Below are positions 22,289-52,383 of a stretch of 56,815 nt of DNA, one piece after another. Each line of letters opens with the position of its first letter. Within the stretch, counting starts at the first letter, position 1. The stretch comes from Ferrimicrobium acidiphilum DSM 19497 (GTDB lineage: Bacteria; Actinomycetota; Acidimicrobiia; Acidimicrobiales; Acidimicrobiaceae). Location: NCBI RefSeq assembly GCF_000949255.1, contig NZ_JXUW01000019.1, positions 1-56,815 on the forward strand. The letters are read 5' to 3'. A program made the translations under genes and the position numbers. Below the pieces are notes generated by a model. That model was not told the origin of the DNA, made no database searches, and saw only the letters and a list, made by a program, of their open reading frames with translations.

Positions 22289-22304
22289 AACAAGGCGAGT
22301 TACG

Positions 22305-26594: not shown

Positions 26595-26684
26595 CGGTGT
26601 TGTTTCTCTCGGTGGCACAAAGATAGGATCTATCTACGCAACCGTCGACATTTAGCCGAATTGGTCGGGTCTTGGAGGGTTCGG

Positions 26685-27437
26685 ATGGAAGCAGTACTTG
26701 AGCGCGTGATCGCCAAGCACAGGCAATTGCTCAGTTTGCCTCCGCTGTCTGTAGGGAGTCCACAGGGCCTTCGCAATGACTTTATGGTCCGCTATGTATA
26801 TGAGACCACGGCTCTAGAGGGCAACTCTCATACTTTGGAGGAGACCAGGACGATCGTCCAAGATCGCATGACCGTCGGCGGTAAACTCCTTAGAGAACAC
26901 TTTGAAGTAGTCAACATCCACCATGCCCTCTTCTGGCTAGAGGACTTCATCGCCTCTGGCAAACCCATCAGTGAAGAGGTGATCCTTGAGTTGCACGCAA
27001 TTGTAATGGATCGAATTCGTGGCCATGACGCAGGGGCTTATCGACGACAGCCGATTCGTATTTCGGGATCCCCTCATATCCCGCCTCACTGGATGACGGT
27101 GCCAACTGCGATGGGAGGGTTGATTGAGCGCCTAGATCGAGGGCCAGGGAACGAGGATCCAATCACGTTCGCAGCCCGCGCTCACATCGAGTTCTCCCGG
27201 ATCCACCCATTTACAGGCGGTAACGGGACAATGGCTCGGCTATTGGTCAACCTGGTGCTTATGCGTTTCGGATATCTACCAGCTATGTACCGCGTTTCGG
27301 AGCGTAACGAGTACATCAGCGCTCTCGGGCGAGCCTACACAGACGGCGACGATACTGAGTTCATAACCGTTACCGCAAAGGCGGTGGAGGTCATGATCGA
27401 TCAACGCTTGGAGTTAGCATTTAGATCTAGAAGTTGA
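26685..27437 (+). CDS. Fic-family protein with altered active-site motif
   Basis: 250 residues from ATG 26685, 5 bases after GGAGGG; a TTG at 26661 also opens the frame. Fic proteins usually transfer AMP from ATP to target hydroxyls. The N-terminal TTALEGNSHT (about residues 40-49) matches the S/T-x3-E-G/N inhibitory helix. The core motif is HPFTGGNGTMAR (H174-R185) where the consensus is HPFxDGNGRxxR. The Mg-coordinating Asp is Gly178 and the phosphate-binding Arg is Thr182. It may be catalytically changed or dead. It converges with an AbiEi-like gene, overlapping 37 bases. Confidence 0.85.
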   Translation: MEAVLERVIAKHRQLLSLPPLSVGSPQGLRNDFMVRYVYETTALEGNSHTLEETRTIVQDRMTVGGKLLREHFEVVNIHHALFWLEDFIASGKPISEEVILELHAIVMDRIRGHDAGAYRRQPIRISGSPHIPPHWMTVPTAMGGLIERLDRGPGNEDPITFAARAHIEFSRIHPFTGGNGTMARLLVNLVLMRFGYLPAMYRVSERNEYISALGRAYTDGDDTEFITVTAKAVEVMIDQRLELAFRSRS

Positions 27438-29671: not shown

Positions 29672-30025
29672 TCAGTTGAGAAAATCGTTGAGCCGACTAG
29701 CGAGACGCTGTGCACCATCTCTGGTCTGACCGATGACAACGATCAGTTCGTCGTTGTCGCGACGTAGCTTGACCATCCACGACCGGTCCTCTCTTCGATT
29801 TCTTGTACTAGCGGAACCGAAGTGCACCTCTACTATGACCGGTCCTCTCTTTCGTCGTCGATGAGCAGCTACACGACAAGCGGCCGAGCAGTACCGTGCC
29901 GGTCTTCCTCTGGGTTGTTCGTCCAGTATCTGATCGCATCCCGGCCCCTCACAAATCTTTGACAACGATGGTTTCGTAACGTTACGTAATGGCTCCTGGG
30001 TTTGTTCTGGGCGGCTCACACTCAT
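29672..30025 (-). CDS. IS21-A third gene: small Cys/Arg-rich accessory protein
   Basis: 117 residues, intact. ICEGPGCDQILDEQPRGRPA then RYCSAACRVAAHRRRKRG gives four Cys that could bind one zinc, followed by an Arg-rich patch. The C-terminal half (MVKLRRDNDELIVVIGQ, RLASRLNDFL) is a strand-helix segment. The start overlaps the istB stop (ATGA). The core resembles the first module of the dual zinc-ribbon passengers in IS256 and IS21-B. Not part of the textbook IS21 gene set; likely DNA-binding, role unknown. Confidence 0.78.
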   Translation of the reverse strand: MSVSRPEQTQEPLRNVTKPSLSKICEGPGCDQILDEQPRGRPARYCSAACRVAAHRRRKRGPVIVEVHFGSASTRNRREDRSWMVKLRRDNDELIVVIGQTRDGAQRLASRLNDFLN

Positions 30026-30750
30026 GACTTCTTTGTCCTCATGGAGGTCCCGTTCATCTGGATAATGTGAGCGTTACACAGGAGGCGATCGAGAACAGCA
30101 TCAGAGAGTGTCGGATCCCCAAGTGCCTCGTGCCATGAGTCAACGGGAAGTTGTGAGGTGACGATGGTCGACTTGCGCTCAGATCGATCCTCTAACACCT
30201 CGAGTAGATCCGACGGTTCGCTCCCCGTAAGTGGGGTGAGTCCGAAATCGTCTATGACTAGTATCTCAGCGCGTGAAAGGCTCTGTAGTACCTTCAGATA
30301 CCTTCCATCACCTCTGGCGATGGCTAGATCCGCAAAGAGAGCTGGTGCCCTCCGGTACAGTGCACTATGGCCAGATCGAATCCCAGCGTAGGCAAGTGCA
30401 CACCCAAGGTAACTCTTACCTATTCCAGTTGGACCGGTGACCAGAATGTTCTGGTGTGCATCTACCCAGTGAGATGAGCTAAAGCCCATGATCATCGAAC
30501 GCTCCAGTCCCCTCGGGGTGTGAAAGTCAAGATCCTCAATGCTGGCTTGATGTCTGAGCTTGGCAGCTCTAAGCCGGGTAGCGAGCCTTCTGGCCTCTCG
30601 ATCCATTGCCTCCCGGTCTACTAACATTGCGAAGCGTTCCTCAAAGCTGAGCTCGAGGTATTGGACACTCTCTAGCTGCTCTCGAAACGCGTCTGCCATC
30701 CCCTTTAACCCAAGGTCTGTCAGGGTTGTCATCGTCTGGTTGTTCAACAT
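30022..30750 (-). CDS. istB: IS21 helper ATPase IstB
   Basis: 242 residues, differing from copy 1 at only a few positions. Walker A GPTGIGKS and Walker B LVIDDFG intact. Overlaps istA by 7 bases at its start and the accessory gene at its stop, so the three genes form one translational chain. Confidence 0.93.
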   Translation of the reverse strand: MLNNQTMTTLTDLGLKGMADAFREQLESVQYLELSFEERFAMLVDREAMDREARRLATRLRAAKLRHQASIEDLDFHTPRGLERSMIMGFSSSHWVDAHQNILVTGPTGIGKSYLGCALAYAGIRSGHSALYRRAPALFADLAIARGDGRYLKVLQSLSRAEILVIDDFGLTPLTGSEPSDLLEVLEDRSERKSTIVTSQLPVDSWHEALGDPTLSDAVLDRLLCNAHIIQMNGTSMRTKKS

Positions 30751-32321
30751 GTCACGCTCTCCTGACCCCCGGCAAGCAGTGCCTTGTAGTACTCGGTCCC
30801 TCTGATGTTTGGATGCTCAATGGGTGGCGGTCCAGCCGGTGGCGTGAGTGCGACGGCATCGAGTCCGTTCTTCAAGATAGAGACCACGCTCTTGTACAGG
30901 GGGCTATGGATCGCTATTGCTCTTTCACATGCCGCCTCGACTCGCTCAGGGGTATAGACCTTCGATGCCAGGTTGAAGATGCCTCTGCACTGGTTAAAGC
31001 CTTGTTCTGGGTAGTGCCTCCCGGACATGATCGTCTCACAGACCACCTGGGTACTTGGCCCTATCGTCCGAGCCCAGGCGAGGATCCTTGCCGGGGTCCA
31101 TGATGCCTGGGCCTGGTGACTCGAGGGCATGTGCGCAAAAGAAGTCTGGTACTGACCCTTCCTCTCGCATCGTCGGTGACTCGCTATGCGCACTCCAGCC
31201 GAGAAGATCTCCACTGTGGTTCTGGTAACCCGTACATCAAGGGTCTGTCCAACCAGATCGTAGGGAACCGAGTAGTAGCCGTCTAGGACCCGTACGTGGT
31301 AGTTCATCTGGACTTTGAACCTTTTCCACTCCGCATATTCGTACGCCATGGCCGGCAGAGGATGCATCGCCGGCCTATCCACAGCTTCGAACACGCTCTT
31401 TCTGGTCCCCTCCCGCCTTTGGAACCCTTGAGCGTTCAGATCCACTAAGAGATCGGCGATTGCCTGGTTGAGTTCATACAGGGAGAAGAATCTGACGTTG
31501 CGAAGCCTGGCGAGAATCTGGCGTTCAACGATCAGGACTCCTCCTTCAACGGCGGCCTTATCTCGAGGCTTTCGGGGTCTAGCTGGCAGAATCGTCACCT
31601 CATAGTGCCTGGCCCACTCCAGGTAGCTCTCGTTGAACACCGGGTCGTACTTGGACGGCTTGATGACCACCGCTTTGGGGTTGTCTGGAACGACACACAT
31701 GGGAACCGCTCCCATGTGCTCGAATGCTGCTGTTCCTCCAGCGGTCCATGACTCGGCCTTCTGGTTGGCAAACGCTTTGGCAAAGATATAGGAGCTCGCT
31801 CCCATCACCGAGACGAAGAGCTGAGCTGCGAAGTTTACCTCACCAGTGTGGTCGTCCCAGATCGGGACCGTATCACCGGCAAAGTCACAGAAGAGCTTCT
31901 CTCCGCCGCGATGCTCAAAGTGCATGACCACTTCATTGATCTTCTTCCATTCTCGGTAGCGAGCACAGAACCGTGAATAGCTGAGCCCATTTGGATTGCG
32001 CTCCTTGTACTCAAACCAGAGAAGCTGAAGGGTCAGGTGATTATGAGCCTGTATCTCGGTGGCCACCTCCTGCCAGTTGGGAATCACGGGCGTACTCTTT
32101 GTTGTCTCAACCGCGGCGAACAACAACTGCTCCAGGGCTTGTACGTCCATGCCCGCTGGAAGTGGCCAGCCAATCTCGTGCTCTGCTGCCTTCTCAAGAT
32201 ATCTCGTCACTGTCGTCCTAGACATCCCCGTCTCCCGGCTGATTACCCTGGCACTCTTGCCCTGCGCACTGAGGCGCAGTACCTCTTCGATCTTTCTCAT
32301 TGGTATCCTCCTATTGGGCAT
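30744..32321 (-). CDS. istA: IS21 transposase IstA, complete
   Basis: 525 residues from ATG 32321, 6 bases after AAAGGA; an upstream GTG frame to 32426 runs into the terminal repeats. The N-terminal helix-turn-helix (VLRLSAQGKSARVISRETGM) binds the ends. The DDE core has FCDFAGDTVPIWD (first Asp), CVVPDNPKAVV (second Asp) and AAVEGGVLIVERQILARLRN (Glu). The long C-terminal part matches the fragment at 1-573. Intact and probably functional. Confidence 0.95.
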   Translation of the reverse strand: MPNRRIPMRKIEEVLRLSAQGKSARVISRETGMSRTTVTRYLEKAAEHEIGWPLPAGMDVQALEQLLFAAVETTKSTPVIPNWQEVATEIQAHNHLTLQLLWFEYKERNPNGLSYSRFCARYREWKKINEVVMHFEHRGGEKLFCDFAGDTVPIWDDHTGEVNFAAQLFVSVMGASSYIFAKAFANQKAESWTAGGTAAFEHMGAVPMCVVPDNPKAVVIKPSKYDPVFNESYLEWARHYEVTILPARPRKPRDKAAVEGGVLIVERQILARLRNVRFFSLYELNQAIADLLVDLNAQGFQRREGTRKSVFEAVDRPAMHPLPAMAYEYAEWKRFKVQMNYHVRVLDGYYSVPYDLVGQTLDVRVTRTTVEIFSAGVRIASHRRCERKGQYQTSFAHMPSSHQAQASWTPARILAWARTIGPSTQVVCETIMSGRHYPEQGFNQCRGIFNLASKVYTPERVEAACERAIAIHSPLYKSVVSILKNGLDAVALTPPAGPPPIEHPNIRGTEYYKALLAGGQESVTC

Positions 32322-32491: not shown

Positions 32492-32934
32492 ATCAGGCAT
32501 TGGTCAGTATCTCCAGTCGCGCTACCGTTACCGGTTACCCGCGACACTAGAGATCAAGTCAACAGCGGCTCCGGAGCACTAACACAAATAGAGCAGATGC
32601 CTGTGAACAGGTTGTTACGCTATGGCTTTGGTCAGAAAGCCAGCGCGGCATCAACTGTCCTCCTTACGACCGTCGTACTCGACCTCTAGGGCCAGCATGG
32701 AGGGGCCGTGCAAATGGAAGCCTCTAGCAGTAAGCCGCTCAAATATTTGTACTTCATAACCGTCAACCCCGGGGGTTGTTCAAGCGACTGTGAAACGCCG
32801 CGTCGTGTCCGAGCGCTTATTGGCAGCTAAACGCCTGGGTGGTGAACCGTGGTATATATTGGTCTTCGTTATTGATATTTTGCCAGGGTTGACGCTTACT
32901 AGTGGACTCGAGTCCCGCCCTTCAGGATCATTGT
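32492..32934. other. Intergenic, no gene seen
   Basis: About 440 bases between the IS21 end and cassette 2. No supported gene. A degenerate half-match to the palindromic repeat (AACGCCGCGTC) occurs near 32794 but lacks the head at the fixed distance. Confidence 0.45.
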
Positions 32935-33849
32935 TCAGTCTGGACTGACGTTGGGCAGCGGAAGGTGGGTAAGCCGTCTGTACTCGACCGCCGAGTAGTT
33001 CTCATCAAGCACCTTGAAATCCAACGCCTGTAGCGTGATTCCAGTCGCGGCGGCCTGTTGTCGACATCTATCCCACCATCGGCTCCACCATTCCATCTGG
33101 GCTCCGTCCAGAGGTGCGGTCGAAACGACAACGATTTGCACGTTAGACGGGCTGAGCCGACTGTCCATCAGCACTCCGATCTCGGGAACCATCTCATCCA
33201 TGCGGTTAAACTCCACTCGGTCGACCCGCTTCAACTCACGCAGGGCTTGGGTCAATGGATCCTGGATGGTGGTTATGAACGATCCCGCGAAAGCCGGTCG
33301 TCCGCTGAGGAGCGCAAGGCGATCGCCCACGCGCTGGCGCAGTTCTTCGCTCTCGAACCCATCAACCCTCGCTTGACGTACTAGCCATCCCTTCTCCACA
33401 GGGAACGAGATGCGGAAGTCAGCGACGTAGAAGCCAGGCGTGACCGCCGGGACGTGCAGCCAAGAGCGACGGAACCGTCCCTCGCGTAGTAGCTTCTTCT
33501 CGCCCGAGTTGAGCGGTTCATCCATGTTGTAGACGGGTATGACTTGCGCCCAGGGCCATCCAGGAGGAGTGGCGTCCTCCTCGACGAGATCACACGTTTG
33601 AGTCGTGATCATTCCGTAGGGCGGCGTGAGTCCCTCGGGGAAGTGGATGACTTCGGGCATAACTGGATCACCGGACGCGATTAGCTCCTTAGCAAATCGC
33701 ACGCTCTGCTCCCATACAGGTGCTCTGGGATCCGCCAGGTATGCCATCGGTGGGTCTGCCACGAGATCACCCTGCCTGAATCGTCGGAGTGCAGAAAGGA
33801 TTCCATCTGGCCAGTCGTTAGCCGATTCAGGTACTCCTGCTCCAATCAC
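32935..33849 (-). CDS. Unknown protein with TTQTCDLV motif (cassette 2, gene 3)
   Basis: 304 residues from GTG 33849, 6 bases after AGGGGAG. The motif YGMITTQTCDLVEE stands out; T-Q-x-CD-x-V signatures occur in a family of uncharacterised proteins found in operons with small regulators. The centre is beta-rich (FYVADFRISFPVEKGWLV) and the C-terminal part helical. No signal peptide or TM. It lies 15 bases after the HTH gene and completes a trio with 33865 and 34653. Confidence 0.65.
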   Translation of the reverse strand: MIGAGVPESANDWPDGILSALRRFRQGDLVADPPMAYLADPRAPVWEQSVRFAKELIASGDPVMPEVIHFPEGLTPPYGMITTQTCDLVEEDATPPGWPWAQVIPVYNMDEPLNSGEKKLLREGRFRRSWLHVPAVTPGFYVADFRISFPVEKGWLVRQARVDGFESEELRQRVGDRLALLSGRPAFAGSFITTIQDPLTQALRELKRVDRVEFNRMDEMVPEIGVLMDSRLSPSNVQIVVVSTAPLDGAQMEWWSRWWDRCRQQAAATGITLQALDFKVLDENYSAVEYRRLTHLPLPNVSPD

Positions 33850-33864
33850 GGTACTCCCCTTTGG

Positions 33865-34653
33865 TTAAGACCGGCTCCGCACACGCCGCACAGGACTAGA
33901 AAAGACGTCCGGACTATGAGCAACAACCCGCTGTCCCTCTTCCTCGAAGTCGAGGGCATGAAGAAGGGCGACTGTGGGCTCTTCGAACAGGATCGTGTTC
34001 GCCTCTGCGACCACGGACCGTAGTCCTGCGTCGTCCGCCAGACGTTCACGTCGGCTGATGCCGCCTGGTCCAGTGTCGGCCAACCAGAGCCGCACGCGCT
34101 CCGTGCCCATCGCGCGGTCCAATGACCCCAGGAGTGCATGAAGATCGAAGAGTCGGCGCACGGTCGCCGGGTACGGGTCCATGCCCTCTCGCCAATTTTT
34201 AACGGACCTGGAGGAGTAGCCAGCTAGCGCCGCTACTTGATCCTGGCCGATGGCCAGCCAGTCCTGGATGTCGGAAACAGCTGCAAGCGCTGCCTCCGCG
34301 GGCGACGACATGACTGGTTCGATCGGAGTCGGCGTCCACGGTCGCATATCACCGATGACATCGGGAAGTTCCGACCGCACCAGAACCCAATTGCCTTCGG
34401 AAACGTCGTCAGTGGTTTGGCTGAACGGATGAGAGATAGCGGCGAGCCGCTCGGCGAGTAAGTTTTGGGTTGTAACGGCTGTGGCTGTGATGAGGGCACC
34501 GAAAATACCCCAGTCTACAGAGCGTTTCGGTAGCCGTTCAAGGCCAACACTCTCAACGGTCTCTCGAGATTTGGCAGTGCACAAAGGGGTGAAGTCGAAC
34601 AATCTCGAGAAAGCCTCGTCCTCTTCGGGGTGAGCAAGAGTGGTCTGGAGCAT
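33865..34653 (-). CDS. HTH protein, MbcA/Xre-antitoxin-like (cassette 2, gene 2)
   Basis: 262 residues starting at ATG 34653 (TGATG overlap with the gene before). The stretch LAIGQDQVAALAGYSSRSVK then NWREGMDPYPATVRRLFDLH is a helix-turn-helix followed by a helical segment as in Xre/MbcA (DUF2384-type) antitoxins. The N-terminal 120 residues are unrecognised. It may repress the operon and/or neutralise one of its partners. The antitoxin reading is inference from the HTH arrangement only. Confidence 0.62.
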   Translation of the reverse strand: MLQTTLAHPEEDEAFSRLFDFTPLCTAKSRETVESVGLERLPKRSVDWGIFGALITATAVTTQNLLAERLAAISHPFSQTTDDVSEGNWVLVRSELPDVIGDMRPWTPTPIEPVMSSPAEAALAAVSDIQDWLAIGQDQVAALAGYSSRSVKNWREGMDPYPATVRRLFDLHALLGSLDRAMGTERVRLWLADTGPGGISRRERLADDAGLRSVVAEANTILFEEPTVALLHALDFEEEGQRVVAHSPDVFSSPVRRVRSRS

Positions 34654-35438
34654 CAAGCATCGCCTCGCAGGTATCCGAATAGCTTTTCCGTAACGGATGC
34701 TTGGAAAACCGCCAGCGCTAGCGTGTGGAGGCGCTCGGTACAGTTACGGATACTATCTGAAGAGAATGCTCTACCACCAGACCGCGAGCAGTCGTGATCG
34801 AGAACGTAGTGCCACACGGAATCGTCAGGGGAGCCTTCTGGAACACAACCATGACGCAGGAGCACTTCCATATCGTCGCCACCGTCAAGCTGGAGCACCT
34901 GCTGGCATGCCTTGATCGCCGGTGCGAAGGCGCTGTGAAGGGCGGGACCCAGCAGACGATCGTCGATCCAGCCTTCCCAGCCCTCGGGAGAATGGATAAC
35001 CGGATCCTTGACGCGATCGATGAACCGCAACCCAACGCGCTGTTCGAGGCTCGGATCGAAAGCAGACACCACCAGCAGAACGAGTTCATTGAGGCGGGTG
35101 GAAAAATCTGCCCAGTCGGTGTACGCGCGGGTCTCCAGCGCGAAGAACTCCGGCATGAGCACCACCGTCCATGCCCCATCCGTGGAGCGGAAGTTCCACC
35201 CATGCTGCTGTTCAGACGCAGTAGACATGCCCGATGTACCGCCTAAGATGTTGAGGGCGATCCCGGCGGCCTGGTCGAGAACCGGGTACTTGCCCCCCAA
35301 TCTTTCTTGGACCTCAAGTGCTCGCCTAGTGTCGGTAACTGCGAGGTTCCGCTCGTACCGGATCTGACACACGACTAACTCCAGCGGAGAGCGCTCAAGT
35401 TTTTCCATCGATGGCTCTGGCAGTTGCAGCCCAGGCAT
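34653..35438 (-). CDS. TIGR04255-family protein (cassette 2, gene 1)
   Basis: 261 residues from ATG 35438, after GAGGTG. LERSPLELVVCQIRYERN at the start and LEQRVGLRFIDRVKDP in the middle are the TIGR04255 signature. It is only distantly similar to the member at 22665 and its partners are different, so TIGR04255 proteins appear to be combined with different cargo. It lies 236 bases downstream of the UvrD-like gene on the same strand, so it may be cargo of the recombinase block. Confidence 0.75.
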   Translation of the reverse strand: MPGLQLPEPSMEKLERSPLELVVCQIRYERNLAVTDTRRALEVQERLGGKYPVLDQAAGIALNILGGTSGMSTASEQQHGWNFRSTDGAWTVVLMPEFFALETRAYTDWADFSTRLNELVLLVVSAFDPSLEQRVGLRFIDRVKDPVIHSPEGWEGWIDDRLLGPALHSAFAPAIKACQQVLQLDGGDDMEVLLRHGCVPEGSPDDSVWHYVLDHDCSRSGGRAFSSDSIRNCTERLHTLALAVFQASVTEKLFGYLRGDA

Positions 35439-35674
35439 CCAGCAACACCTCGTTTCTGTTCATGCTGGCCCGGCTTGGACATTCGTCCCAGCGTAAGCAC
35501 AGTTGCGGGCAAGTTGCAGTATAGTCCCTCCACTCCGGAGGTGAACCCAGGTGCTGAGAGTAGAGCGAGACTCCCAATGCGTAAAACCTCTACGGCTGTT
35601 GCGGTATCTCTTAGCAGCCATGCAGTACTGTATGCGGAGAGCTCCATTCAGCCTTCATTTCGTCGCCGGATTAA

Positions 35675-37741
35675 CTACGTAAAATCCTGGTACTGCCATC
35701 CCTCCAAAGGAACTTCATGGAACCTGGGCAAGCCACTCAAACACAACATCGCGTAGGCTCTGCGCGCCCGAGTCTCAGCAACATACGACTGCGAACCTGC
35801 CGCGACATCGCCATTGGAAGAAGCGGCACAGCGATCGACATGTTCCGGGCGAGGGATGCGCTCCCCATGGTAAGCAATCACAACATCCACAGAATCACCT
35901 TTCGAACTCTCTGGCGTTTTAATCTGAACTACCGAAGTAGACAGCTCAAGCTCCTTGGGCTGCCAGTTCTCCCGCCTATCGCGAATGAACGCAGCTACCT
36001 TGCCAGACAATACTTCCGCCCCCCATGTTCTTAATAGATCGAGGATCCATAAGTCACGTGTACTTCCCCGGCTCGTAGCTTTGCCCGACAAGAGTAGGAC
36101 GCCTTGCAAGTCCGCTACACTATCTATTACAGGAGTCCGACTGTCGGTATTACTAAACTGCTGTACCAAATACCTCGAACCTTCAAGGTACTCCCGACCG
36201 CACGCCGTCAGCTTTGGATATCTTGCAATGTCCTGAATGACCTTCACTAGTCGCGAACTCACCTCACGTCGCGATTGCGTTACGCCTAGAGTTCCTAGAT
36301 TGTACATCAACACTTTGAAGCAAAACCTAACCTCCCGTTCCGATATCTTATCCATACCAGCAACCCATCTGATTTTTTGCTTCGTCAATAACGCCCTTAG
36401 CTGTGCCACAGGTTCTCCCCCAAACTCAAACCAGCTTTCTACCGCCATTACAGTCTCACTCTCATATGGATTTTCCTGAGGCTTGACATGTATTGCATCT
36501 ATCCCCCGAAGTTGAAGTCCCTTTTCCACTTCCCTAGCTATGCGATTGGTCGGCACCAAGACTGTCACACTTACATCAGTAGGGGCCCTCTCAATTCCTC
36601 CAGCTGTGTTCCCACGTTCTACGCGCTCCCAAAAGCGCACAAACTCGACTGGAAGACGACCCACAATCGAAACATTATAACTCGCTCGCTTGCAGTACAT
36701 TAAGGCGCACAGTAAAGCATCCATCAACTGTTGTTCACAAAGCCACACCGTTACCAATGGTTCTGGCCCACTCGGACAATCCTTAGGAGTACGTGCAGGC
36801 AACGACCCCATCCCTGAAGCTTGCTGCAATGAATTCGCACCAGTTACCAACTCAGGAGTGGAACGCAAATTCAACGTAAGTGCCCGCTCCTCAAAAACAA
36901 CCCCTGACCTCCGAAAGAAGGCTGCTGGGTTACCAACGGCTCCACGAAACGTCATCACCGCCTGACCAGGATCTCCCAGCCCCACCAAGCGGGGGCCTTG
37001 GGGCAGACGGCTAAGAGCGATGAGTGGAGAAAGGTCGCGTTCTGAACAGTCTTGGAATTCGTCAACTATTATGAGGTCGAAACATCGACACAGCAACTCC
37101 GCCACCCGAGTAGCTTGACCCACCACTAACCGACTCCATACAGCAGGAAGAATGATATGGTCGGCCAACGCCTTCGCTTCCATAGCATTGATATAAGGCG
37201 TCATGAACTCCTGATAAATGCGTGATAACGCCTGCGATCTAGCCAAGAGGTCTAGAATATGGATCAACCTATGCTGAGCTTGTTCGTCGCTCCAAAGACC
37301 TGCTTCTCCACCCCTTCTAATCATCTCCTCCCCGCCGACAGCGACCAGCAGAGAATATTGCTCCGTGGGGCCCGCCAATCTATATTTATTAAAATCAGGA
37401 ACGAGTTCTCGTATTCCTCCAAAGAGCATGCTATCGAATGTCTGCACCCTCAAGCTGTTCCCTAAAAACGCACTAGGCGTAACCATCTTGAGCTTAAGGT
37501 CATGGCGCTGAGACAGTGCCGACACTATCTCCTTGAGCCCATTTCGGGAGAAACTGAGGGCTAATACACGTGTAGCGGCTTGACTTTCACCACAAATAAG
37601 GCTAGCTACAGTCGACGTTTTCCCTGTTCCAGCCTTCGCTGTTGCAATGAGCGTCCGTGCCGTAGAGGCGACCCTAATGACCGTAGATTGCTCATTCGTT
37701 AAGGTAATCCCATGACTTTGTCCACAACTATTGCCATGCAT
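35675..37741 (-). CDS. UvrD/Rep-like superfamily 1 helicase
   Basis: 688 residues. Motif Q/I: LTNEQSTVI then ATAKAGTGKTST (Walker A, about 33-44). Motif II: LIIVDEFQDCSERD. Motif III: GLGDPGQAVMTFRGA. Motif IV: LTLNLRSTPEL. Motif V: KTPESSKGDSVDVVIAYHG. Motif VI: YVAETRARRAYAML. All SF1A motifs are visible, so ATP-driven DNA unwinding is likely. The central 2B region is divergent. It starts 2 bases after the 212-aa gene's stop. A UvrD-like helicase as last gene of a recombinase operon suggests it acts in excision, replication or repair of the mobile intermediate. Confidence 0.85.
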   Translation of the reverse strand: MHGNSCGQSHGITLTNEQSTVIRVASTARTLIATAKAGTGKTSTVASLICGESQAATRVLALSFSRNGLKEIVSALSQRHDLKLKMVTPSAFLGNSLRVQTFDSMLFGGIRELVPDFNKYRLAGPTEQYSLLVAVGGEEMIRRGGEAGLWSDEQAQHRLIHILDLLARSQALSRIYQEFMTPYINAMEAKALADHIILPAVWSRLVVGQATRVAELLCRCFDLIIVDEFQDCSERDLSPLIALSRLPQGPRLVGLGDPGQAVMTFRGAVGNPAAFFRRSGVVFEERALTLNLRSTPELVTGANSLQQASGMGSLPARTPKDCPSGPEPLVTVWLCEQQLMDALLCALMYCKRASYNVSIVGRLPVEFVRFWERVERGNTAGGIERAPTDVSVTVLVPTNRIAREVEKGLQLRGIDAIHVKPQENPYESETVMAVESWFEFGGEPVAQLRALLTKQKIRWVAGMDKISEREVRFCFKVLMYNLGTLGVTQSRREVSSRLVKVIQDIARYPKLTACGREYLEGSRYLVQQFSNTDSRTPVIDSVADLQGVLLLSGKATSRGSTRDLWILDLLRTWGAEVLSGKVAAFIRDRRENWQPKELELSTSVVQIKTPESSKGDSVDVVIAYHGERIPRPEHVDRCAASSNGDVAAGSQSYVAETRARRAYAMLCLSGLPRFHEVPLEGWQYQDFT

Positions 37742-37743
37742 GA

Positions 37744-38382
37744 TTAATCTAGCTCCTCCAACTGCATCTGAACTTTTCGGACAGCCTCCATCACTTCCAA
37801 GGCCGCACCGTTGAGCCGTTGTCGTGTCTCAGTGCTCAGCCATCGGAGAGATTCACTGGGATCGGAGAACTGATCATGAAGCGCATTACAGTACAAGCGT
37901 TCATCGAACCCGTGTGCTGCTGCGTAGTGCTCCTTGGCGAGCATCCGCAGGCTTGTAATTCCACAGTTAACGAGTAGTTCCCAGTCAGTATCAGAATCAC
38001 CATCCGTCAATATTTTGACCACATTCGGTCGCATCGTTCGGAGAATATTTCGAATAGCTTGCGGACTGTTGGGGCGCCTCCGGCGCTCCAACCATTGGCG
38101 AAGCACCGCCACATCGTTGGGATCGACAGGTAGGGGACTTTTGAATCCATTGACAACCAGCTGGTCATCGTGCAGAGTGGCACCAACTAATTGAGAAGGT
38201 CGAAGAAAGTATTTGGTAAGCATCAGTAGCAACCCACGATTGCCACTCTCCGAGGCGGCCCTCCAGACCGCGGCCTCGACCACTGGTGGAATAAAGGCTA
38301 ATCGTTGCCGACGTACTTTATCCGAACCAGAGGCTCCTCGCCTGCCTACCCTAGCGTTGGCATCCGACCTGCCTTCACCCAT
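37744..38382 (-). CDS. Unknown protein of recombinase operon (212 aa)
   Basis: 212 residues from ATG 38382, overlapping the previous stop by 8 bases. A basic N-terminus (RVGRRGASGSDKVRRQRLAF) is followed by helices. LMLTKYFLRPSQLVGATLHD resembles the region around the first catalytic Arg of tyrosine recombinases and precedes short strands (DDQLVVNGFKSPLPV), but no His-x-x-Arg or Tyr motif is evident. It could be a catalytically dead recombinase-like subunit. This is a structural guess. Confidence 0.6.
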   Translation of the reverse strand: MGEGRSDANARVGRRGASGSDKVRRQRLAFIPPVVEAAVWRAASESGNRGLLLMLTKYFLRPSQLVGATLHDDQLVVNGFKSPLPVDPNDVAVLRQWLERRRRPNSPQAIRNILRTMRPNVVKILTDGDSDTDWELLVNCGITSLRMLAKEHYAAAHGFDERLYCNALHDQFSDPSESLRWLSTETRQRLNGAALEVMEAVRKVQMQLEELD

Positions 38383-40018
38383 GATGCCCCCAACTACCGA
38401 GATACCTAGCGGCTTCTGCAACATTAGGCCGAAGGTAATTGAGTCGCATCTCGCCTCTGCTATGCCCCAGGATCGCCGTTATCGGGGCAAAGTCGTCCGG
38501 CGTGAGAGCGTCAGCCAAAAGCTTCGCCATCATCGGGCGAGTAAATCGAATGTCTTGATGCGGAATACGTTGGTCCGTCATCAATTGGTATCGACTGCAC
38601 ATTCGTTCAATCGCGGACGCAAAATCGCGTCGCGAGGCGTCTGAAGGCTCTTCAGGCGCATCGATTGGCAGCCAGTCGAGGTTGATCCCAAAGCCCTCAA
38701 GGAACGCTTCGGCGATAAAAAGCACGGCGCTACCCGTCTTGTTAGCCTTCCACGGAACATGGATAAGCCAACCCTCTCTCGTGACAACAACATACGATCG
38801 TCGGAGACCGAGAACGACGGAGGCCCGAGCGCACGATAAAATCTGAAGGATTATCAGTTTTCCGTAGGCTTCACCGGCGAGGAGCTTGGGCGCAAGAGCG
38901 AGAATGGAGACGGCCGTCAGCTGGTCAGGTGCTAAGTCATCCCGTGGCGCCTGCCAGAACGACTGAATCCTATGTCCCTGCAAACCGCACGGGAAAGCAA
39001 GAACGGAGGCGCCAAATCGCTGCGCTTGTTCAAGATACGTCACGAAGGGCTGAAATCCCTCCATGACTCTTTTCATCGCCCTTTCCCGAGCGGTATCCGT
39101 ATCGCACCCCTGGAGACGGAACATCTTTTCCAAGGTTGCTGCATCCTGTGCGAGCGCCTCGTCATAGCGAAACGCCACCTCGGAATCCACCACGAGCCGA
39201 CGCACATGTTCTAACCCTGGGGAAATCACCGGCGTGGCATCCAATCCAGCTACCCGCGAGAGGCGCTCGCAGTGCCTACCCACCCGAACAAGACGCTCCC
39301 AGGACGCCAAGCGACGAGGCCCCAGATAAGCCAGCATCGCAGCAGCCGCAGGAGAGCTGGTGCAAAGCCATCGCAGAGGTGCCAACGCTGCATCGCTAGT
39401 CTTCCTCCCCAATAGCCCCTCACACAGCCCCGCAAAGGTCGAAGGTATCAACCCTGAACGGACAACCAGCCAACCGTACTCCACACCTCCATAACCTCGT
39501 CGTATGCGGCTAGCAACCTCCCTGGCCGTAATTTGCTCGCCGTTCATTTCGAGACGCGGTTCCGGCCCAAGGATTTTCAGGAGCTGCAGCATCGAAGACG
39601 GCGGCGAGCCTGAGTAAAGCAGCTCCAATACCCCCAGTGCCTCGGGAAAATCTGTAAGCCGTGGAATGATTCGAAATAGCTGCCGCAACACTCGCTCTAA
39701 ATTCGGTACCTCGTTGGGGAACTGCTGCCCTAAAGCGGCCAGGCTCCGTTGGAAGGCTGTCGTCCGCGTGAAGTCGTCGAGGATGCGCGGCAGCCCAATG
39801 CCATCCACGCCTTCAAGCGCAAGCAGAGCGCTGACTCGAACCTCCAGCGAGCGGCGTGTACGGAACTCCCGATCCCACTCGCTCGGCGACGCCTCCTCAA
39901 GATGGCGCAGCCCATTCACCAACTCCTCCTCTCCAATCTTCAGGGTGGCCGCGATTTCTGTACGCAGGCGGGCGAGGCTAGTCTCGCTTACTGCTACGGG
40001 CCTAGAGTCGCCATGCAT
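38375..40018 (-). CDS. Large tyrosine-recombinase-like protein
   Basis: 547 residues from ATG 40018 (sharing one base with the previous stop). The first ~370 residues are helical and unrecognised. The C-terminal ~170 look like a tyrosine recombinase catalytic domain: SCARASVVLGLRRSYV (first Arg), VPWKANKTGS (Lys), RIPHQDIRFTRP (His and second Arg, with spacing H-x3-R rather than H-x2-R), AILGHSRGEMRLNYLRP (His and Tyr). Active, if correct, in site-specific integration or excision. Much longer than usual integrases. Family assignment should be tested. Confidence 0.65.
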   Translation of the reverse strand: MHGDSRPVAVSETSLARLRTEIAATLKIGEEELVNGLRHLEEASPSEWDREFRTRRSLEVRVSALLALEGVDGIGLPRILDDFTRTTAFQRSLAALGQQFPNEVPNLERVLRQLFRIIPRLTDFPEALGVLELLYSGSPPSSMLQLLKILGPEPRLEMNGEQITAREVASRIRRGYGGVEYGWLVVRSGLIPSTFAGLCEGLLGRKTSDAALAPLRWLCTSSPAAAAMLAYLGPRRLASWERLVRVGRHCERLSRVAGLDATPVISPGLEHVRRLVVDSEVAFRYDEALAQDAATLEKMFRLQGCDTDTARERAMKRVMEGFQPFVTYLEQAQRFGASVLAFPCGLQGHRIQSFWQAPRDDLAPDQLTAVSILALAPKLLAGEAYGKLIILQILSCARASVVLGLRRSYVVVTREGWLIHVPWKANKTGSAVLFIAEAFLEGFGINLDWLPIDAPEEPSDASRRDFASAIERMCSRYQLMTDQRIPHQDIRFTRPMMAKLLADALTPDDFAPITAILGHSRGEMRLNYLRPNVAEAARYLGSWGHHG

Positions 40019-40467
40019 CAGATGGCCCTCCGCTGGCCTCTCGGCAAGACCTCTAATTCCCAAATGCCCCCGAAATCTGGACTGTATCGACGATAGACGT
40101 CGACTGGCGTCGAACTCGAACCCTTCGCTGCCGGATCAAGAGCGCCTGGCAGAAGTTTACGTATGCTGCCACGTAGCCACACTTCGCGATGGCCGCGGAA
40201 CTCCTTAATCGTGATAAGGGGTCCCGCAGTGATATCGGTGCTCAAAATCAAGCCGCACCAAGTGCTCCGCACTGAAAGTTGGTCAGCAAAAGAGGGAAGC
40301 AGCGTTTTGAGTGACAGCCTCCGATTCCGAGTGATGCGTCGCTCCCACGGACCATCCAGAGCAAACTCTCCCCTTCGCACTCGCTGCGCTCTACTAGGAG
40401 CCTTTGGCACCTGTTCCCAGAGGCAATCCATCTCTTCGTAGAGCTGTTGTTGAGGGTCAGCATCCAT
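40018..40467 (-). CDS. Unknown protein of recombinase operon (149 aa)
   Basis: 149 residues, acidic helical start (QQQLYEEMDCLWEQVPKAPS) then a mixed region with ADQLSVRSTWCGLILSTDI. Overlaps the excisionase gene by 11 bases and the recombinase gene by 3, so it belongs to the operon. No known motif. Confidence 0.6.
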   Translation of the reverse strand: MDADPQQQLYEEMDCLWEQVPKAPSRAQRVRRGEFALDGPWERRITRNRRLSLKTLLPSFADQLSVRSTWCGLILSTDITAGPLITIKEFRGHREVWLRGSIRKLLPGALDPAAKGSSSTPVDVYRRYSPDFGGIWELEVLPRGQRRAI

Positions 40468-40699
40468 ATTTCTTATCCCAACCTATGATCGTCACGGAAG
40501 TCAACCACTCAGAAATATCGCGCCGACTGAACCGAATGAAGTGCCCGACTTTTATGAAGGGTAACCGCCGCTCGGCGACAAGACGCCGCACATGGCGCTC
40601 ACTCGTTCCCAGAATTTTTGCGAGCTCCACGACCGTCAATAGCGGGTCGAGGGCATCTGCACCACTCGTGGGCTGATCGCCCAATATTCTGCGGGTCAT
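40457..40699 (-). CDS. Excisionase-like HTH protein
   Basis: 80 residues from ATG 40699, preceded by AAAAGGAG at good spacing (the frame is open to 40822 without a ribosome site). LLTVVELAKILGTSERHVRR then LVAERRLPFIKVGHFIRF is a textbook MerR-like/excisionase (HTH_17) winged helix. Such proteins bend att-site DNA to direct excision or act as activators. First gene of the minus-strand operon, 210 bases downstream of the 12-bp repeat array, which could be its binding site. Confidence 0.82.
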   Translation of the reverse strand: MTRRILGDQPTSGADALDPLLTVVELAKILGTSERHVRRLVAERRLPFIKVGHFIRFSRRDISEWLTSVTIIGWDKKYGC

Positions 40700-40908
40700 C
40701 GAACTCCTTTTCGCCAGTTGCTTCCGTAGCAATTCCTTTTCTCCAAAGCTATCACAAGGAGCAGTAATTAAGTGCGAATAATCCCACCCTAAGTGACATT
40801 CGAGAAATAAAAACCCTCCCACCAGGGACTTTCTAGAAGAATTGCCAACGGATCAACGCGAAATGAAGCATTTCCCGACACTATAAAGACTCGCAAATGT
40901 CATCTGGC

Positions 40909-41037
40909 CGTACGCATCGACGTACGCATCGACGTACGCATCGACGTACGCATCGACGTACGCATCGACGTACGCATCGACGTACGCATCGACGTACGCA
41001 TCGACGTACGCATCGACGTACGCATCGACGTACGCAT
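40909..41037. repeat. Iteron-like array: ten 12-bp tandem repeats
   Basis: Ten perfect copies of CGTACGCATCGA (40909-41028) and a partial eleventh (CGTACGCAT). Each contains the palindrome CGTACG. The array lies upstream of the excisionase-recombinase-helicase operon and abuts palindromic repeat unit f. Twelve bases per unit give one helical turn plus, placing sites on nearly the same face, as in iterons. A minus-strand frame through it gives repeated YVDA but lacks coding support. Confidence 0.9.
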
Positions 41038-41042
41038 ACGAT

Positions 41043-41185
41043 TGAACCAAACATAATGATGTATATCTAACAGGGTATTTGCCTTCCAGAATCCGCCAAA
41101 ATGTGACGCGGCGTCACATCATTGACTGTCTATTGCCCTCTCGATCTTGAGAGACAAATTCCTATTCGGCGTAACTCACCGTGAT
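41043..41185 (+). repeat. 60-bp-geometry palindromic repeat, unit f
   Basis: Head starts at 41043 (TGAACCAAACATAATGATG); perfect palindrome GTGACGCGGCGTCAC at 41103-41117, distance 60. Same middle and tail as units b, d, e and i. Confidence 0.82.
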
Positions 41186-41540
41186 CTAGTGGTTCTTTTG
41201 ACATTCATGTGGATCAGGTCGCCCTTTCATAGGGCGACTTCACGTCAATAGTCCTACAGACTTAGCAACACCAGGGCGAGGGGAACTTGCGCAGAGTGGA
41301 TCCGCAGGAGCGAACAATGATGGAACGGACTCATTCACCCAGTCCTTCCGGGCTTGCAACGTGGTGGCCCAGACGGGTGACCGCGAACTGGTGTCAAGTG
41401 GCACCCGGGGATCAACTTGGGTGGGGGAGCACGTATTTCAACAGTGTCGGGGGTCCAATTGGCCGATTGGTTTGAGTCAATAACTTACTTGTCGGATTGG
41501 CTCCACCTAGCCGACCCGCGGGATCCGTCCGGTCAGCGAT
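41186..41540. other. Intergenic with a perfect hairpin
   Basis: No gene seen. A perfect 8-bp stem with 5-base loop (GTCGCCCT ... AGGGCGAC) lies at 41218-41238. It lacks a following T-run, so it is not a convincing terminator. Confidence 0.5.
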
Positions 41541-41837
41541 GACTGGAGTTCCTCACCAAATGGGTATCCCCTCGACCCTGACAACACCTCGCATGCTTTC
41601 CAAGCATTCGTCGCACGAGCAGTACTTGGCCGCCGCCATGTCCATGAATTTCGTCATGCCGCAGCCTCCCTGATGTTGCCGGCTGAAACTCCGCTACCCG
41701 AAGTATCCCGCGTACTTGGCCATAGCTGAACCCGAATCACCGACGAGGTCTAGGCGCACCTTGGATACGAGGCTTTGTGGGGTGCTGTTGATCGGCTGGC
41801 TGGCGTGCTGGATCCGAGTCTGGGGTCAAAATCGTAG
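41541..41837 (+). pseudogene. Decayed tyrosine integrase, C-terminal remnant
   Basis: A single frame gives NGYPLDPDNTSHAFQAF, then VHEFRHAAASLML (the H-x-x-R-H box), VSRVLGHS, a TGA, TRITDEV, a TAG at the place of the catalytic Tyr, then AHLGYEALWGAVDRLAGV. This is unmistakably the end of a phage-type integrase with two stop codons. It marks an old integration site next to the iteron array. Confidence 0.82.
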
Positions 41838-42221
41838 CGAAACCGGGAAGGCTAGCTGGCTTCACGCTACTCACCTTGGTTAATCGTTGCCAATCGGCGG
41901 GCTCTAAAAGATTGTAGGATATCGCAAACAATCGGCGGGTGCTTGGTCGCAGTCACTGATGCCGCTCGATGCTCGGTCTGCTGGTTCCTAGTTGATGTTG
42001 ACCCCTCGATTGTCACTGAATTTCTATATCTCTGGTGGCGAATCACCACGAGTCAAGTCGGTTGCCAAATAGACAAGCTTTAGACCGATCGGGTGGTGTG
42101 GGAAAGCAGCCCTGGTAATGATGCTCTAAGAAGTTGGGAACTTTCGCCAGTGTGCAGGCAGGCGAGAGCGTTTGAGACCATCTAGCTTTGTCGTCGATCG
42201 ACTAGTTAAGAGGGTATGAGG
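41838..42221. other. Intergenic, no gene seen
   Basis: About 380 bases with only short unsupported frames. No repeat or RNA noticed. Confidence 0.45.
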
Positions 42222-42965
42222 CTACTCCGGCGAAACGGTGGAGGTGTTTATCGGGCTTGGTTCAGGCGTGGCTACCCATATTGGAGCACCCAGAATGACT
42301 AGATCGTACGGCTCGATGTCTTTGGCCACACAGAATCTCTGCATGAGCACATCCAATCGCCTCTGCTCAAAGCCTTTGAAGCGTTGGCCAAGCAAGCTGA
42401 CCGCCGTATCAGCTCGGGTGTCCGGCGAATGTCCTAGATCGCGATCGAGCTCATAGTGATCTATCTGTGGGTCTGCCAACTCTCGAGTTCTTTCCAAGAT
42501 GCCGTAAAGTCCGTCAACGTCGCTAGGGATTTCAGCCGAGCCGTCACTTACGGGTCTTCTACCGCGGTAGTTGGATGCAGAGCCAAAAAGTGCCACGAGC
42601 ACCTTGCCAACATCGGGAACATTTACATCAGCCTTCATGACTGCAATCTCAACATTGCTTGTAGTTTGCCAGCCCATGTGGACCGTCAAGAACCCCATCG
42701 TTAGGTCAACCTGAGCCCGAATATATGAAGACTCATACTCCGAGATCGTGCCGGTCAAGTCCCGAACTGCCTCGGTAGCCTCTCGGCATAGCGCGAACTC
42801 ATTGTCTCGATCAGGCGAATCTCTTTGGAAGCCAAGCATGCCGTGCAGTAATGAGATTGTCCGGAGTCTCCAGGCAAGACGATAGGTTTGATCCTGCTGG
42901 ACAATCTGCCGTACAAGCCGACTGGAAATGTAACGAAAGTCGACCGGCCACCTATCTACCCCCAT
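42222..42965 (-). CDS. SAVMC3_10/DUF7019-like protein
   Basis: About 247 residues from ATG 42965; an earlier start would run through the repeat unit upstream. The motif VALFGSASNYRG and the start FRYISSRLVRQIVQQ resemble the SAVMC3_10 (DUF7019) family of actinobacterial proteins of unknown function. The C-terminal IDHYELDRDLGHSPD and YDLVILGAPIWVATPEP are also in keeping. Recognition is moderate. The head of repeat unit g ends about 20 bases upstream of the start, so the repeat may supply promoter sequence. Confidence 0.55.
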   Translation of the reverse strand: MGVDRWPVDFRYISSRLVRQIVQQDQTYRLAWRLRTISLLHGMLGFQRDSPDRDNEFALCREATEAVRDLTGTISEYESSYIRAQVDLTMGFLTVHMGWQTTSNVEIAVMKADVNVPDVGKVLVALFGSASNYRGRRPVSDGSAEIPSDVDGLYGILERTRELADPQIDHYELDRDLGHSPDTRADTAVSLLGQRFKGFEQRRLDVLMQRFCVAKDIEPYDLVILGAPIWVATPEPSPINTSTVSPE

Positions 42966-42985
42966 AGTCGACAGGATAGCACCGA

Positions 42986-43060
42986 TGACCAAAACATAAC
43001 AATGTCTCCTCACCTGGTGTTTTGAGTGTACTCGAATGTCCAAAAGTGAGACAGGTTGAG
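42986..43060 (+). repeat. 60-bp-geometry palindromic repeat, unit g (half site)
   Basis: Head TGACCAAAACATAACAATG at 42986-43004. Exactly 60 bases on (43046) stands GTGAG, the start of the palindrome, whose other half is lost. The middle section matches unit a. Confidence 0.7.
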
Positions 43061-43246
43061 CGAGCCGTCGAGTTTGGGAAACCATCGCAACGATGGTTTG
43101 CTGAGCTAGAAAGGCAGTTCAATGGGGACATTATGAAAGGGACAGTCTGCGGGTCAAAGGCGAAGGTTGCCCTCTCTTGTCATGTTGCATAACAGCGAAC
43201 CTACGATGACTCTGGTGACTGGCATTCTATAAGCAACGTCGAATAG

Positions 43247-44470
43247 TTAGGTTTTTGACCCCATGCCATCGAACAATACCCTCCGAAAGAGGACGGCACC
43301 AACGACAGCAGCTCCTGCGCACACCGGTGCCACCAAGAGCCCCGGCCCAACACCGACGCTCGTTACCAATAGGCCTACTACCGCTTCTGCAAGACCAACT
43401 CCTAGTGGCCAGGCAGCGCCGACGAGGGCGAAGGCTTCGGTAGCTCTTTCCGCTGGCGCCAGCTTTGAGACACATGCCAAAATGACCGCTACGATAGGGG
43501 CAAGACCAAGGCCAGCGATAACGCACAAGATCGCCGTCAACGCGAAGCCCCCACGGAGGACGACCAACATCACGAGACCGGCCGCGAACACACTGCTTGA
43601 GGCGACTAGCTCCACCTTGACATTACCTCTCAACCGAAGGCCACTATATAGCAGCCCTCCAAAAAGACTCCCTGCTGCAATCGCTGACAGCAGCACACCA
43701 GCCCGTGAAGCGCCGCCAATGCCGACTGCGTAAGCCGGCAGCGCAACAGTGAGTGCACCCTCTGCCCCACCTAACACACCGGCAAGGACAACCAGAACCC
43801 AGATGCCACGAGCGAGCCGATGCTCTGGTGGATGGTGCCGCCAAGTGAAGGATCTGCCGTTTCGACAAGAGCCCGCAGTGAGCGCGAACCCCGTAGAACC
43901 CGCACAGCCCAAGGCGGCCAAAACGATGACTGCGATCGAAGGACCGGCCACGACCGCAACTAGTCCAACCAAGCCGGGGGCAGCCGTCATAGAAAGCTCA
44001 TACAAAAAGGCGTCAACGACGAGCGCCGAACGTGCCATCTCCTTTCGTGTAGTCGTCCAAAACGACCTAATGGCGGGGGTGAAGGCGGGCAAGGTCAGAC
44101 CACATAACCCTGCCATTACGATGAGGCTAACGCTCTGGTCCGGTTCATGGCTTAGCAGCGCAAGTCCGAGCATCGCGACGGTATTAGCTGCGGCGGTGAG
44201 GCCCATGACGCGTCGGACACCGAATGCATCCATGAAGCGACCATGTTCACGTCGGGTAACCGCAGTGCTCAGTGCAAAGGCTGCCACCGCCAGGCCAGCA
44301 GGACCAAACGTACCAGTCGCGTGCCTTACGAGAAGAACGATTGCTAGGCCGATACCGCCTTCGCGTAGCCTCCCAATCAATCCCTCGGCTACAACCCAGC
44401 GGACCGTCGATGACCGGAGCAGGGTCGCGAAGTCCCTAAGTGGTCTTGTGCTCTCCGGTTCTGACGCCAT
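43247..44470 (-). CDS. Major facilitator superfamily transporter
   Basis: 407 residues with about 12 hydrophobic segments, for example GLIGRLREGGIGLAIVLLV, VVDAFLYELSMTAAPGLVGL and VILAALGCAGSTGFALTAG, and a polar central loop (FTWRHHPPEHRLARG). The loop RREHGRFMDAFGVRRVMGLT matches the MFS motif A region between TM2 and TM3. Probably a drug or small-molecule exporter of the inner membrane; substrate unknown. Single gene, about 90 bases downstream of a Phd-type antitoxin gene on the same strand. Confidence 0.88.
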   Translation of the reverse strand: MASEPESTRPLRDFATLLRSSTVRWVVAEGLIGRLREGGIGLAIVLLVRHATGTFGPAGLAVAAFALSTAVTRREHGRFMDAFGVRRVMGLTAAANTVAMLGLALLSHEPDQSVSLIVMAGLCGLTLPAFTPAIRSFWTTTRKEMARSALVVDAFLYELSMTAAPGLVGLVAVVAGPSIAVIVLAALGCAGSTGFALTAGSCRNGRSFTWRHHPPEHRLARGIWVLVVLAGVLGGAEGALTVALPAYAVGIGGASRAGVLLSAIAAGSLFGGLLYSGLRLRGNVKVELVASSSVFAAGLVMLVVLRGGFALTAILCVIAGLGLAPIVAVILACVSKLAPAERATEAFALVGAAWPLGVGLAEAVVGLLVTSVGVGPGLLVAPVCAGAAVVGAVLFRRVLFDGMGSKT

Positions 44471-44562
44471 TATCTATCGCCTATCCACTGCGAGGCTATT
44501 CCTGTCCCTCAGGACCTAGCAGTCGCGCATGTTCGGGCTGCCCTGCCGAGCAACTGCCGAGT

Positions 44563-50287: not shown

Positions 50288-50370
50288 TGACCAAAACATA
50301 ACGATGGACTATGAGCTGGGGGGTTTATTTGTCTTCCGCTATGCAAAAGTGACGCGGCGTCACTTTTGGA
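50288..50370 (+). repeat. 60-bp-geometry palindromic repeat, unit h
   Basis: Head TGACCAAAACATAACGATG from 50288; perfect palindrome at 50349-50363, distance 61. Middle similar to unit c. Confidence 0.8.
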
Positions 50371-52179: not shown

Positions 52180-52315
52180 TGACCCAAACATAATGATGCA
52201 TATCTACCAGGGTCTTTACCTTCCAGAATCCGTCAAAAAGTGACGCGGCGTCACATTGTTGACTGTCATTTGCCTCCGTGATCTTGAGAGACAACTTCAT
52301 CTGCGGTGTAACTCC
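52180..52315 (+). repeat. 60-bp-geometry palindromic repeat, unit i
   Basis: Head TGACCCAAACATAATGATG from 52180; perfect palindrome at 52240-52254, distance 60. Same subfamily as b, d, e and f. Confidence 0.83.
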
Positions 52316-52383
52316 CTTGCCCAACTTTCGAAACTCATCCGCATTCTCCCTGGTAGAGGGGTTGGGGTTAGAGCAGTAGGACA

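Follow-up and report, generated by a model that had tools for sequence, protein, structure and literature searches.

The gamma-Mobile-Trio (GmtY, GmtX and GmtZ) has a recombinase core made of several genes and carries defence genes as cargo. Two further systems, SE and GInt, combine active recombinases with an inactive partner. The SE core consists of IntA, the dead tyrosine recombinase (YR) Tfp, IntB with its very long N-terminus, and Srap, encoded in the order intA-tfp-intB-srap; a circular copy of one strand is formed, no empty site is left, and copy-out has been proposed (PMC9345347, PMC10214605). The SE authors filtered out Tfp proteins shorter than 550 aa as truncated, and they detected SE only in Gammaproteobacteria. 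GInt (GinA, GinB, GinC and GinD) is a multi-recombinase operon at an island end in which the active site of GinC is incomplete; its cargo is variable, it occurs in many diverse bacterial groups, and the island is flanked by imperfect repeats of 10-17 nt (PMC5385486). Here we describe a five-gene operon on a stretch of 56,815 nucleotides from Ferrimicrobium acidiphilum DSM 19497 (contig NZ_JXUW01000019.1 of assembly GCF_000949255.1; hereafter the window), which is one complete contig, C19, of a 3.09-Mb genome. The genes lie in tight series on the minus strand and encode, in order, a helix-turn-helix protein (HTH), a small protein (U149), a long predicted YR (REC), a second protein with a predicted, degenerate YR fold (U212) and a UvrD-like helicase (Table 1). 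We read this operon as belonging with the multi-recombinase mobile elements, in a new form with a helicase, and as set apart from SE and GInt by its gene set.

As in SE, the operon is translationally coupled and lies near one island end, and it joins a putatively active recombinase, whose N-terminus is very long, to a recombinase-fold partner without an active site and to a small helper (PMC9345347, PMC10214605). The layout differs, however: SE has two active recombinases with a large dead partner in second place, whereas here the predicted dead partner is only 212 aa long, comes after REC and is followed by UvrD. The described SE core has no helicase, and the word does not occur in the text of PMC9345347. 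Compared by gene set and not by sequence, HTH-U149-REC-U212-UvrD does not correspond to intA-tfp-intB-srap with its large Tfp. With GInt the locus shares a multi-recombinase operon at one island end, one member of which has a defective active site. GInt has three recombinases and the small GinD, and "helicase" is absent from the text of PMC5385486; by description, and again not by sequence, our locus differs in having one active and one dead YR and no clear flanking repeats. In the open-licence literature we found no description of a YR-UvrD operon or of an accessory dead recombinase with a helicase.

The reading frames are closely joined. HTH and U149 overlap by 11 bp, the REC start overlaps the U149 stop by 1 bp (TGATG), U212 and REC overlap by 8 bp, and a 2-bp gap separates UvrD from U212; coordinates and junctions agree with the original prediction, made from the sequence alone, of five minus-strand genes that overlap their neighbours or lie 2 bp apart. 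A ribosome-site-like sequence, AAAGGAG, accompanies the HTH gene. The operon is presumably co-translated. Confident Pfam matches were obtained for the first (HTH_17) and last (UvrD-helicase) genes only, and none of four libraries (Pfam, NCBIfam, PHROG and PADLOC) contained a family covering REC, U149 or U212.

REC had no Pfam match, its sequence profile found nothing significant in the PDB (best E 0.13, an XerC-like protein), and together with five relatives it gave no NCBIfam match at E up to 1, and hence none to a named recombinase family there, in keeping with the original reading of the locus. The gamma-Mobile-Trio, which had been offered as a loose analogy, remains a fair one at that level, although the same six proteins did not match the NCBIfam GmtY model NF040693 at that threshold. 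In an AlphaFold2 model (pLDDT 77.6, pTM 0.44), the 30 best Foldseek rows were all YRs, the top one being the Tn1549 integrase (E 6.1e-5), and a VIA comparison aligned REC to XerH across the core-binding and catalytic domains (Z 14.0, rmsd 8.9 over 268 aligned positions, residues 218-547). The recombinase fold proposed for this protein was thus borne out on the model. It spans residues ~222-547; an extra N-terminal region does exist, but it is ~220 and not ~370 residues long. Five catalytic residues, R398, K427, R494, H519 and Y528, were invariant in every row covering them among eight sequences compared. The full R, K, H, R, H, Y set that had been proposed for checking needs one amendment: H487, considered as the catalytic histidine, was rejected since this position varies among relatives, and position 491, where His is usual, carries R, K or Y in all seven sequences read out. 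The catalytic set is accordingly R398-K427-[R/K/Y]491-R494-H519-Y528. Of the two features that define the YR superfamily, the fold and the signature R-K-(H/K/Y/R)xxR-H-Y, REC has both; U212 has the fold on its predicted model and lacks a conserved catalytic Arg and Tyr. Predicted structure and conserved residues together identify REC as a tyrosine recombinase that has a full R-K-x-R-H-Y set and an additional N-terminal region.

U212, originally taken as a plain unknown, is predicted by AlphaFold2 and VIA to have a degenerate recombinase fold. The best of five models reached pLDDT 75 and pTM 0.65 (pLDDT ranged from 75 to 42). Among 221 chains pre-ranked by Foldseek, VIA gave Z scores of 11.6 for XerA and 11.2 for the Tn1549 integrase (rmsd 3.1-3.2 over 152 aligned positions), values to be read with care, since VIA scores below ~13 can mislead for helical folds. 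The best 50 rows were all tyrosine recombinases, YR-fold phage regulators or DNA topoisomerases. Foldseek alone was weak (best hit XerA, E 0.32, prob 0.96), and the single Pfam match (E 0.16) lay below the cut-off. The position of the first catalytic Arg reads R, S, T and R in four sequences, and no conserved Tyr was found towards the C-terminus, the expected place of the nucleophile. U212 is therefore predicted to be a YR catalytic-domain fold without an active site. The phage regulators YopR, MrpR and SroF are among its structural matches, which would suit a role for REC and U212 as DNA-binding regulators of the island, like the YR-fold repressors of SPbeta-type phages. We consider such a role highly improbable: the catalytic residues of REC are kept in far relatives, and it is hard to see what a helicase would do in a repressor circuit.

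The remaining three proteins were examined by profile. HTH matched Pfam HTH_17 (E 4e-14) and, above cut-off, the NCBIfam "excise" domain TIGR01764 (E 1.6e-13), in line with its earlier description as excisionase-like; in PADLOC it matched mad1 (E 1.2e-8), a general HTH similarity, and the NCBIfam MAD1 model stayed below cut-off. U149 had no Pfam, NCBIfam, PHROG or PADLOC match. Its homologues nevertheless stand directly upstream of REC in five other genomes (G127, G033, G008, G006 and G693; 28-51% identity in alignment A5), in three of which (G127, G006 and G008) an HTH_17 open reading frame (ORF) precedes U149. UvrD matched PF00580 (E 8.7e-12) and carries motifs I (AKAGTGKT), II (DEFQD) and VI (VAETRA), which are also present in the helicases of G008 and G724; the motif III pattern used matched none of them, yet GDPGQ or GDTDQ is visible in the helicase sequences. 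UvrD also matched many PADLOC models of GajB, the Gabija component. This, with the defence-like genes found in the window, would fit an island passenger operon that attacks invading DNA through a recombinase-type nuclease and a helicase. However, the GajB matches are generic UvrD similarity, REC, U212 and U149 had no PADLOC match, and no anti-phage component model was matched beyond generic UvrD; moreover, a complete recombinase active site and an excisionase-type HTH favour recombination. A defence role, or another cargo role, is therefore very unlikely.

We then determined how widely the module recurs. Counting the genome of the window itself, REC relatives were found at E 0.01 in 7 of 197 related genomes; the weakest, in G045 (E 0.007), was dropped as a module carrier. 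They were present in 6 of 397 genomes of the order, in 4 of 203 of a second, overlapping order sample searched with a wider profile, and, among 297 relatives of G724, in 2. In two phylum-wide samples the yield was 1 of 396 and 2 of 386, the second match in the latter (G436) still belonging to the same order. A narrow pattern scan of 84,980 genomes gave 123 candidate stretches, five of which were module loci (G033, G127, G006, G693 and G008). Neither plasmid, phage nor viral collections contained a match to REC; UvrD and the G724 REC had none in plasmid and phage collections, and the G724 helicase none in plasmids. An origin of the module from plasmids, phages or viruses was accordingly set aside, there being no relatives in them with the queries tried. 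The module is so far seen in one order of actinobacteria.

Ten genomes carry intact, partial, decayed or distant sets: that of the window (G000), G008, G127, G033, G006, G693, G061, G020, G724 and G436. All are draft assemblies, the one in fewest contigs being G436 (7). The full order HTH-U149-REC-U212-UvrD is present in the window and in G008. G127 has HTH-U149-REC and then the start of U212 at a contig end; G006, of the same genus as the window genome, has HTH-U149-REC up to the end of a 3,144-base contig (C250). In G033, two HTH-like ORFs (weak, E 0.02), U149, REC and the start of U212 are followed by a group II intron, which begins within the U212 homologue (L021:4380-4575). In G693 REC is interrupted by a stop and a frame break; U149 is present and U212 is complete. 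The last stretch of REC in G061 directly adjoins an IS21-type pair, recognised by eye, and the contig ends within U212; G020 retains decayed pieces of the module. Two distant sets complete the list, their small genes assigned by size and position: in G724, REC (E 2.4e-10 per genome; reciprocal match to G008, E 1.9e-6) is preceded by a recombinase-gene end, recognised by eye, and then a U149-like ORF, and is followed first by a U212-like ORF and then by a UvrD helicase (Pfam E 1.6e-17); in G436, REC (E 2.9e-10 per genome) lies between a U149-like and a U212-like ORF, and a 556-aa gene comes last. Because gene order and REC sequence (31-40% identity) are kept in other genera, the operon is beyond chance. 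Two outcomes had been named beforehand as speaking against the system, a 547-aa protein lacking a recombinase fold and five genes never found together in another genome; the fold was recovered on the model, and the five genes stand together in G008, with partial or diverged sets in further genomes.

The surroundings of the module point to genomic islands. An intact ordinary integrase (Pfam) and a tRNA gene lie beside it in three genomes: a 383-aa integrase ~30 bp from uvrD with tRNA-Lys in G008, a 423-aa integrase with tRNA-Glu in G127 and a 391-aa integrase with tRNA-Pro in G693. Upstream of the G724 set lies an integrase end, and the remnant listed in Table 1 lies in the window, so that in five of the seven sets with readable flanks the module adjoins an ordinary integrase or its remains (the flanks of G033, G006 and G061, on contigs below 5 kb, are unreadable). 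Only the window and G008 have sequence extending well beyond uvrD, where variable genes had been suggested as a check. In the window the remnant lies beyond the tandem array, where an old integrase had been noted; it shares 80-83% DNA identity with integrase-gene ends in contigs C10, C12 and C46 and 73% with a stretch of C27, and 36% protein identity over 70 aa with the tRNA-Pro integrase of G693. In G033 the 3' half of a tRNA gene was seen by eye ~0.2 kb before the HTH-like ORFs, called by neither ARAGORN nor Rfam. The three intact integrases are only 27-33% identical to one another; the module therefore travels with islands of different specificity, not with one integrase. A second tRNA-Lys 3' end was found on another contig of G008. 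For tRNA-Glu in G127 and tRNA-Pro in G693 no second 3' end with the same flank was found, only paralogue-type matches, and an Rfam search of window positions 32500-44500 gave no tRNA pieces. The idea of a mobile system thus stands as far as the integrases at tRNA genes in three loci go, but not in the form of convincing flanking repeats around the module; a self-contained transposon with such repeats was rejected for this reason.

These surroundings bear on whether REC, U212, HTH and U149 form a heteromeric machine for plain site-specific recombination, cutting out and pasting in the element, with the helicase aiding host completion or regulation. Both SE attL x attR recombination and GInt recombination require multi-YR operons that include a dead YR and small helpers, HTH has its "excise" match, and the REC model appears to have both core-binding and catalytic domains, all as such a machine would have. 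However, the three islands with long flanks already possess an ordinary integrase, and neither module ends nor an empty site were found; we hold plain recombination to be quite unlikely.

Given that the islands already come with an ordinary integrase, another complete recombinase, accompanied by a dead partner and a helicase, would be expected to serve a different function. We tentatively favour, at somewhat less than even confidence, a DNA-processing operon near the integrase end of Acidimicrobiales-type islands, an SE-like copy-out variant with its own helicase. The ordinary integrase would join the island to the tRNA gene, and the operon would do a second, separate job. The dead partner U212 and the HTH protein would place REC on a site in the element, where REC would make a covalent, Tyr528-linked nick or a one-strand exchange between the element ends. 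The helicase might then unwind from the nick, one strand being displaced and copied into a circle. Movement would be by copy-out and strand-biased, as proposed for SE, with an element-encoded helicase. That the operon defines a distinct class of mobile element, a YR system with its own SF1 helicase and dead partner producing one-strand copies out of tRNA-borne islands, is doubtful. Since a version with its own helicase suggests strand displacement within the reaction, the copy-out route is directly testable, and the operon would give a first such system for study in Acidimicrobiales-type actinobacteria. To our knowledge, the mobile elements of these bacteria have been little studied.

The main rival to copy-out is a mobilisation module, in which REC would be a YR-type relaxase (MpsA-, TcpM- or MobK-like) that nicks oriT, HTH and U149 accessory oriT binders, and UvrD the unwinding enzyme, with conjugative carriage as for SGI1 with MpsA/MpsB. 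SGI1 offers a parallel, in that its own integrase is accompanied by a separate YR-like protein and a small helper (PMC6414798); MobK, TcpM and MpsA are YR-like relaxases (PMC8152469), and, as with them, the YR-fold protein here lies in an island with its own integrase. An element-borne helicase also suits strand displacement. On the other hand, core-binding domains are missing from the three YR-type relaxases that have been described (PMC8152469), whereas the REC model appears to have one, aligning with XerH over both domains, although the model is weak there. We judge a relaxase role unlikely.

Several observations weigh against the copy-out reading. The U212 fold has as its basis a five-sequence model and middling scores. 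The G008 REC has one in-frame TGA just past the catalytic Tyr, and the REC copies of G693, G061 and G020 are broken. No UvrD match was found in the ~400 bp between U212 and the contig end in G693. Contigs end inside U212 in G127 and G061, or in the intron inside U212 in G033, which may hide assembly problems. By hhalign the small genes of G724 are weak in sequence (E 0.0053 for the U212-like and 0.094 for the U149-like ORF). The 556-aa gene of G436 (L127:5768-7438, minus strand) matched neither a Pfam helicase family nor the UvrD profile, so the operon may accept different genes in fifth place, or this one may have diverged extremely, and neither a tRNA gene nor an integrase was seen in the 18 kb read around this set. 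The decayed copy in G020 lies 106 bp from tRNA-Arg, and no integrase was found there. Neither in the window nor in G008 is the module flanked by convincing repeats, and element ends were not found. Finally, the congener G003 has at tRNA-Lys an integrase that shares 77% identity with the one beside the G008 module, and no module is present at this site. In G003 (L107, contig C32), tRNA-Lys (17341-17428) is followed by four partial 3'-end copies at 9470, 5222, 3652 and 2351, a row that is apparently an island stack at one tRNA gene. The integrase and this row in a locus without the module make tRNA-Lys an island hotspot at which the module is optional.

Table 1. The operon and associated features in the window.
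Feature	Position	Strand	Basis
Gene 1, HTH_17 / excisionase-type DNA-binding protein, 80 aa (P0005)	40457-40699	-	Pfam, NCBIfam
Gene 2, U149, small protein, 149 aa (P0004)	40018-40467	-	ORF, homologues upstream of REC
Gene 3, REC, long tyrosine recombinase (predicted), 547 aa (P0001)	38375-40018	-	AlphaFold2 model, Foldseek, VIA, invariant residues
Gene 4, U212, predicted degenerate YR-fold protein, 212 aa (P0002)	37744-38382	-	AlphaFold2 model, VIA
Gene 5, SF1 UvrD-like helicase, 688 aa (P0003)	35675-37741	-	PF00580, motifs
12-bp tandem array, upstream of gene 1	40909-41037		Tandem Repeats Finder
Remnant of ordinary phage-type integrase, 3' end, internal stops	~41567-41819	+	DNA identity to integrase-gene ends
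RepA	41042-41190 (+), 22284-22430 (-), 19375-19484 (-), 7145-7290 (-), 52180-52318 (+)		
RepA, partial copies	50288-50366, 19279-19356, 7074-7151		

Two kinds of repeat lie upstream of the operon. The original prediction had counted ten perfect 12-bp repeats ~210 bp upstream of the first start; Tandem Repeats Finder gave 10.8 copies, 100% identical, 209 bp upstream of the HTH start. Their proposed status as an iteron-like part of the system did not survive comparison: a two-unit pattern of the array had no other match in the genome, and none of six other module loci scanned had a comparable array. Iterons, or a replication or binding array that defines the system, were accordingly rejected, the array being unique to this locus. 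The second kind is a dispersed repeat of ~140 bp, here called RepA, which has one sharp end and the palindrome GTGACGCGGCGTCAC. Eight strong copies occur in the genome at unrelated locations, all with the sharp end in common; copies beyond the window are on C20 and C41. On the inner side of the copy ending at 22430, the sequence is common to C41 for 1.6 kb, into a Lon-like AAA gene, and to C20 for 0.35 kb. We take RepA for a mobile repeat distinct from the module; it looks like one terminus of a mobile element that has no name as yet. Its copy next to the array was considered as a module attachment site and rejected, given the copies at unrelated places; a G033 copy directly upstream of U149 (L021:1852-1970, minus strand; 72% over 103 bp), in the same orientation to the operon, is a coincidence that stays unexplained. 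Adjoining RepA in the window is another repeat of ~141 bp (41191-41334) with ~20 other genome copies, most at 72-77% identity, which is probably an insertion-sequence end.

Defence-like genes surround the operon. A 1589-aa protein resembling a restriction helicase and methylase (10402-15171) and a Fic-like gene (26661-27437) both scored below family cut-offs, and there are two TIGR04255 genes (22665-23486 and 34653-35438). The left half of the contig is bracketed by inverted copies (1-1592 and 29725-31316) that are 94.6% identical and carry IS21-type genes, recognised by eye; this half could have been inverted via these copies.

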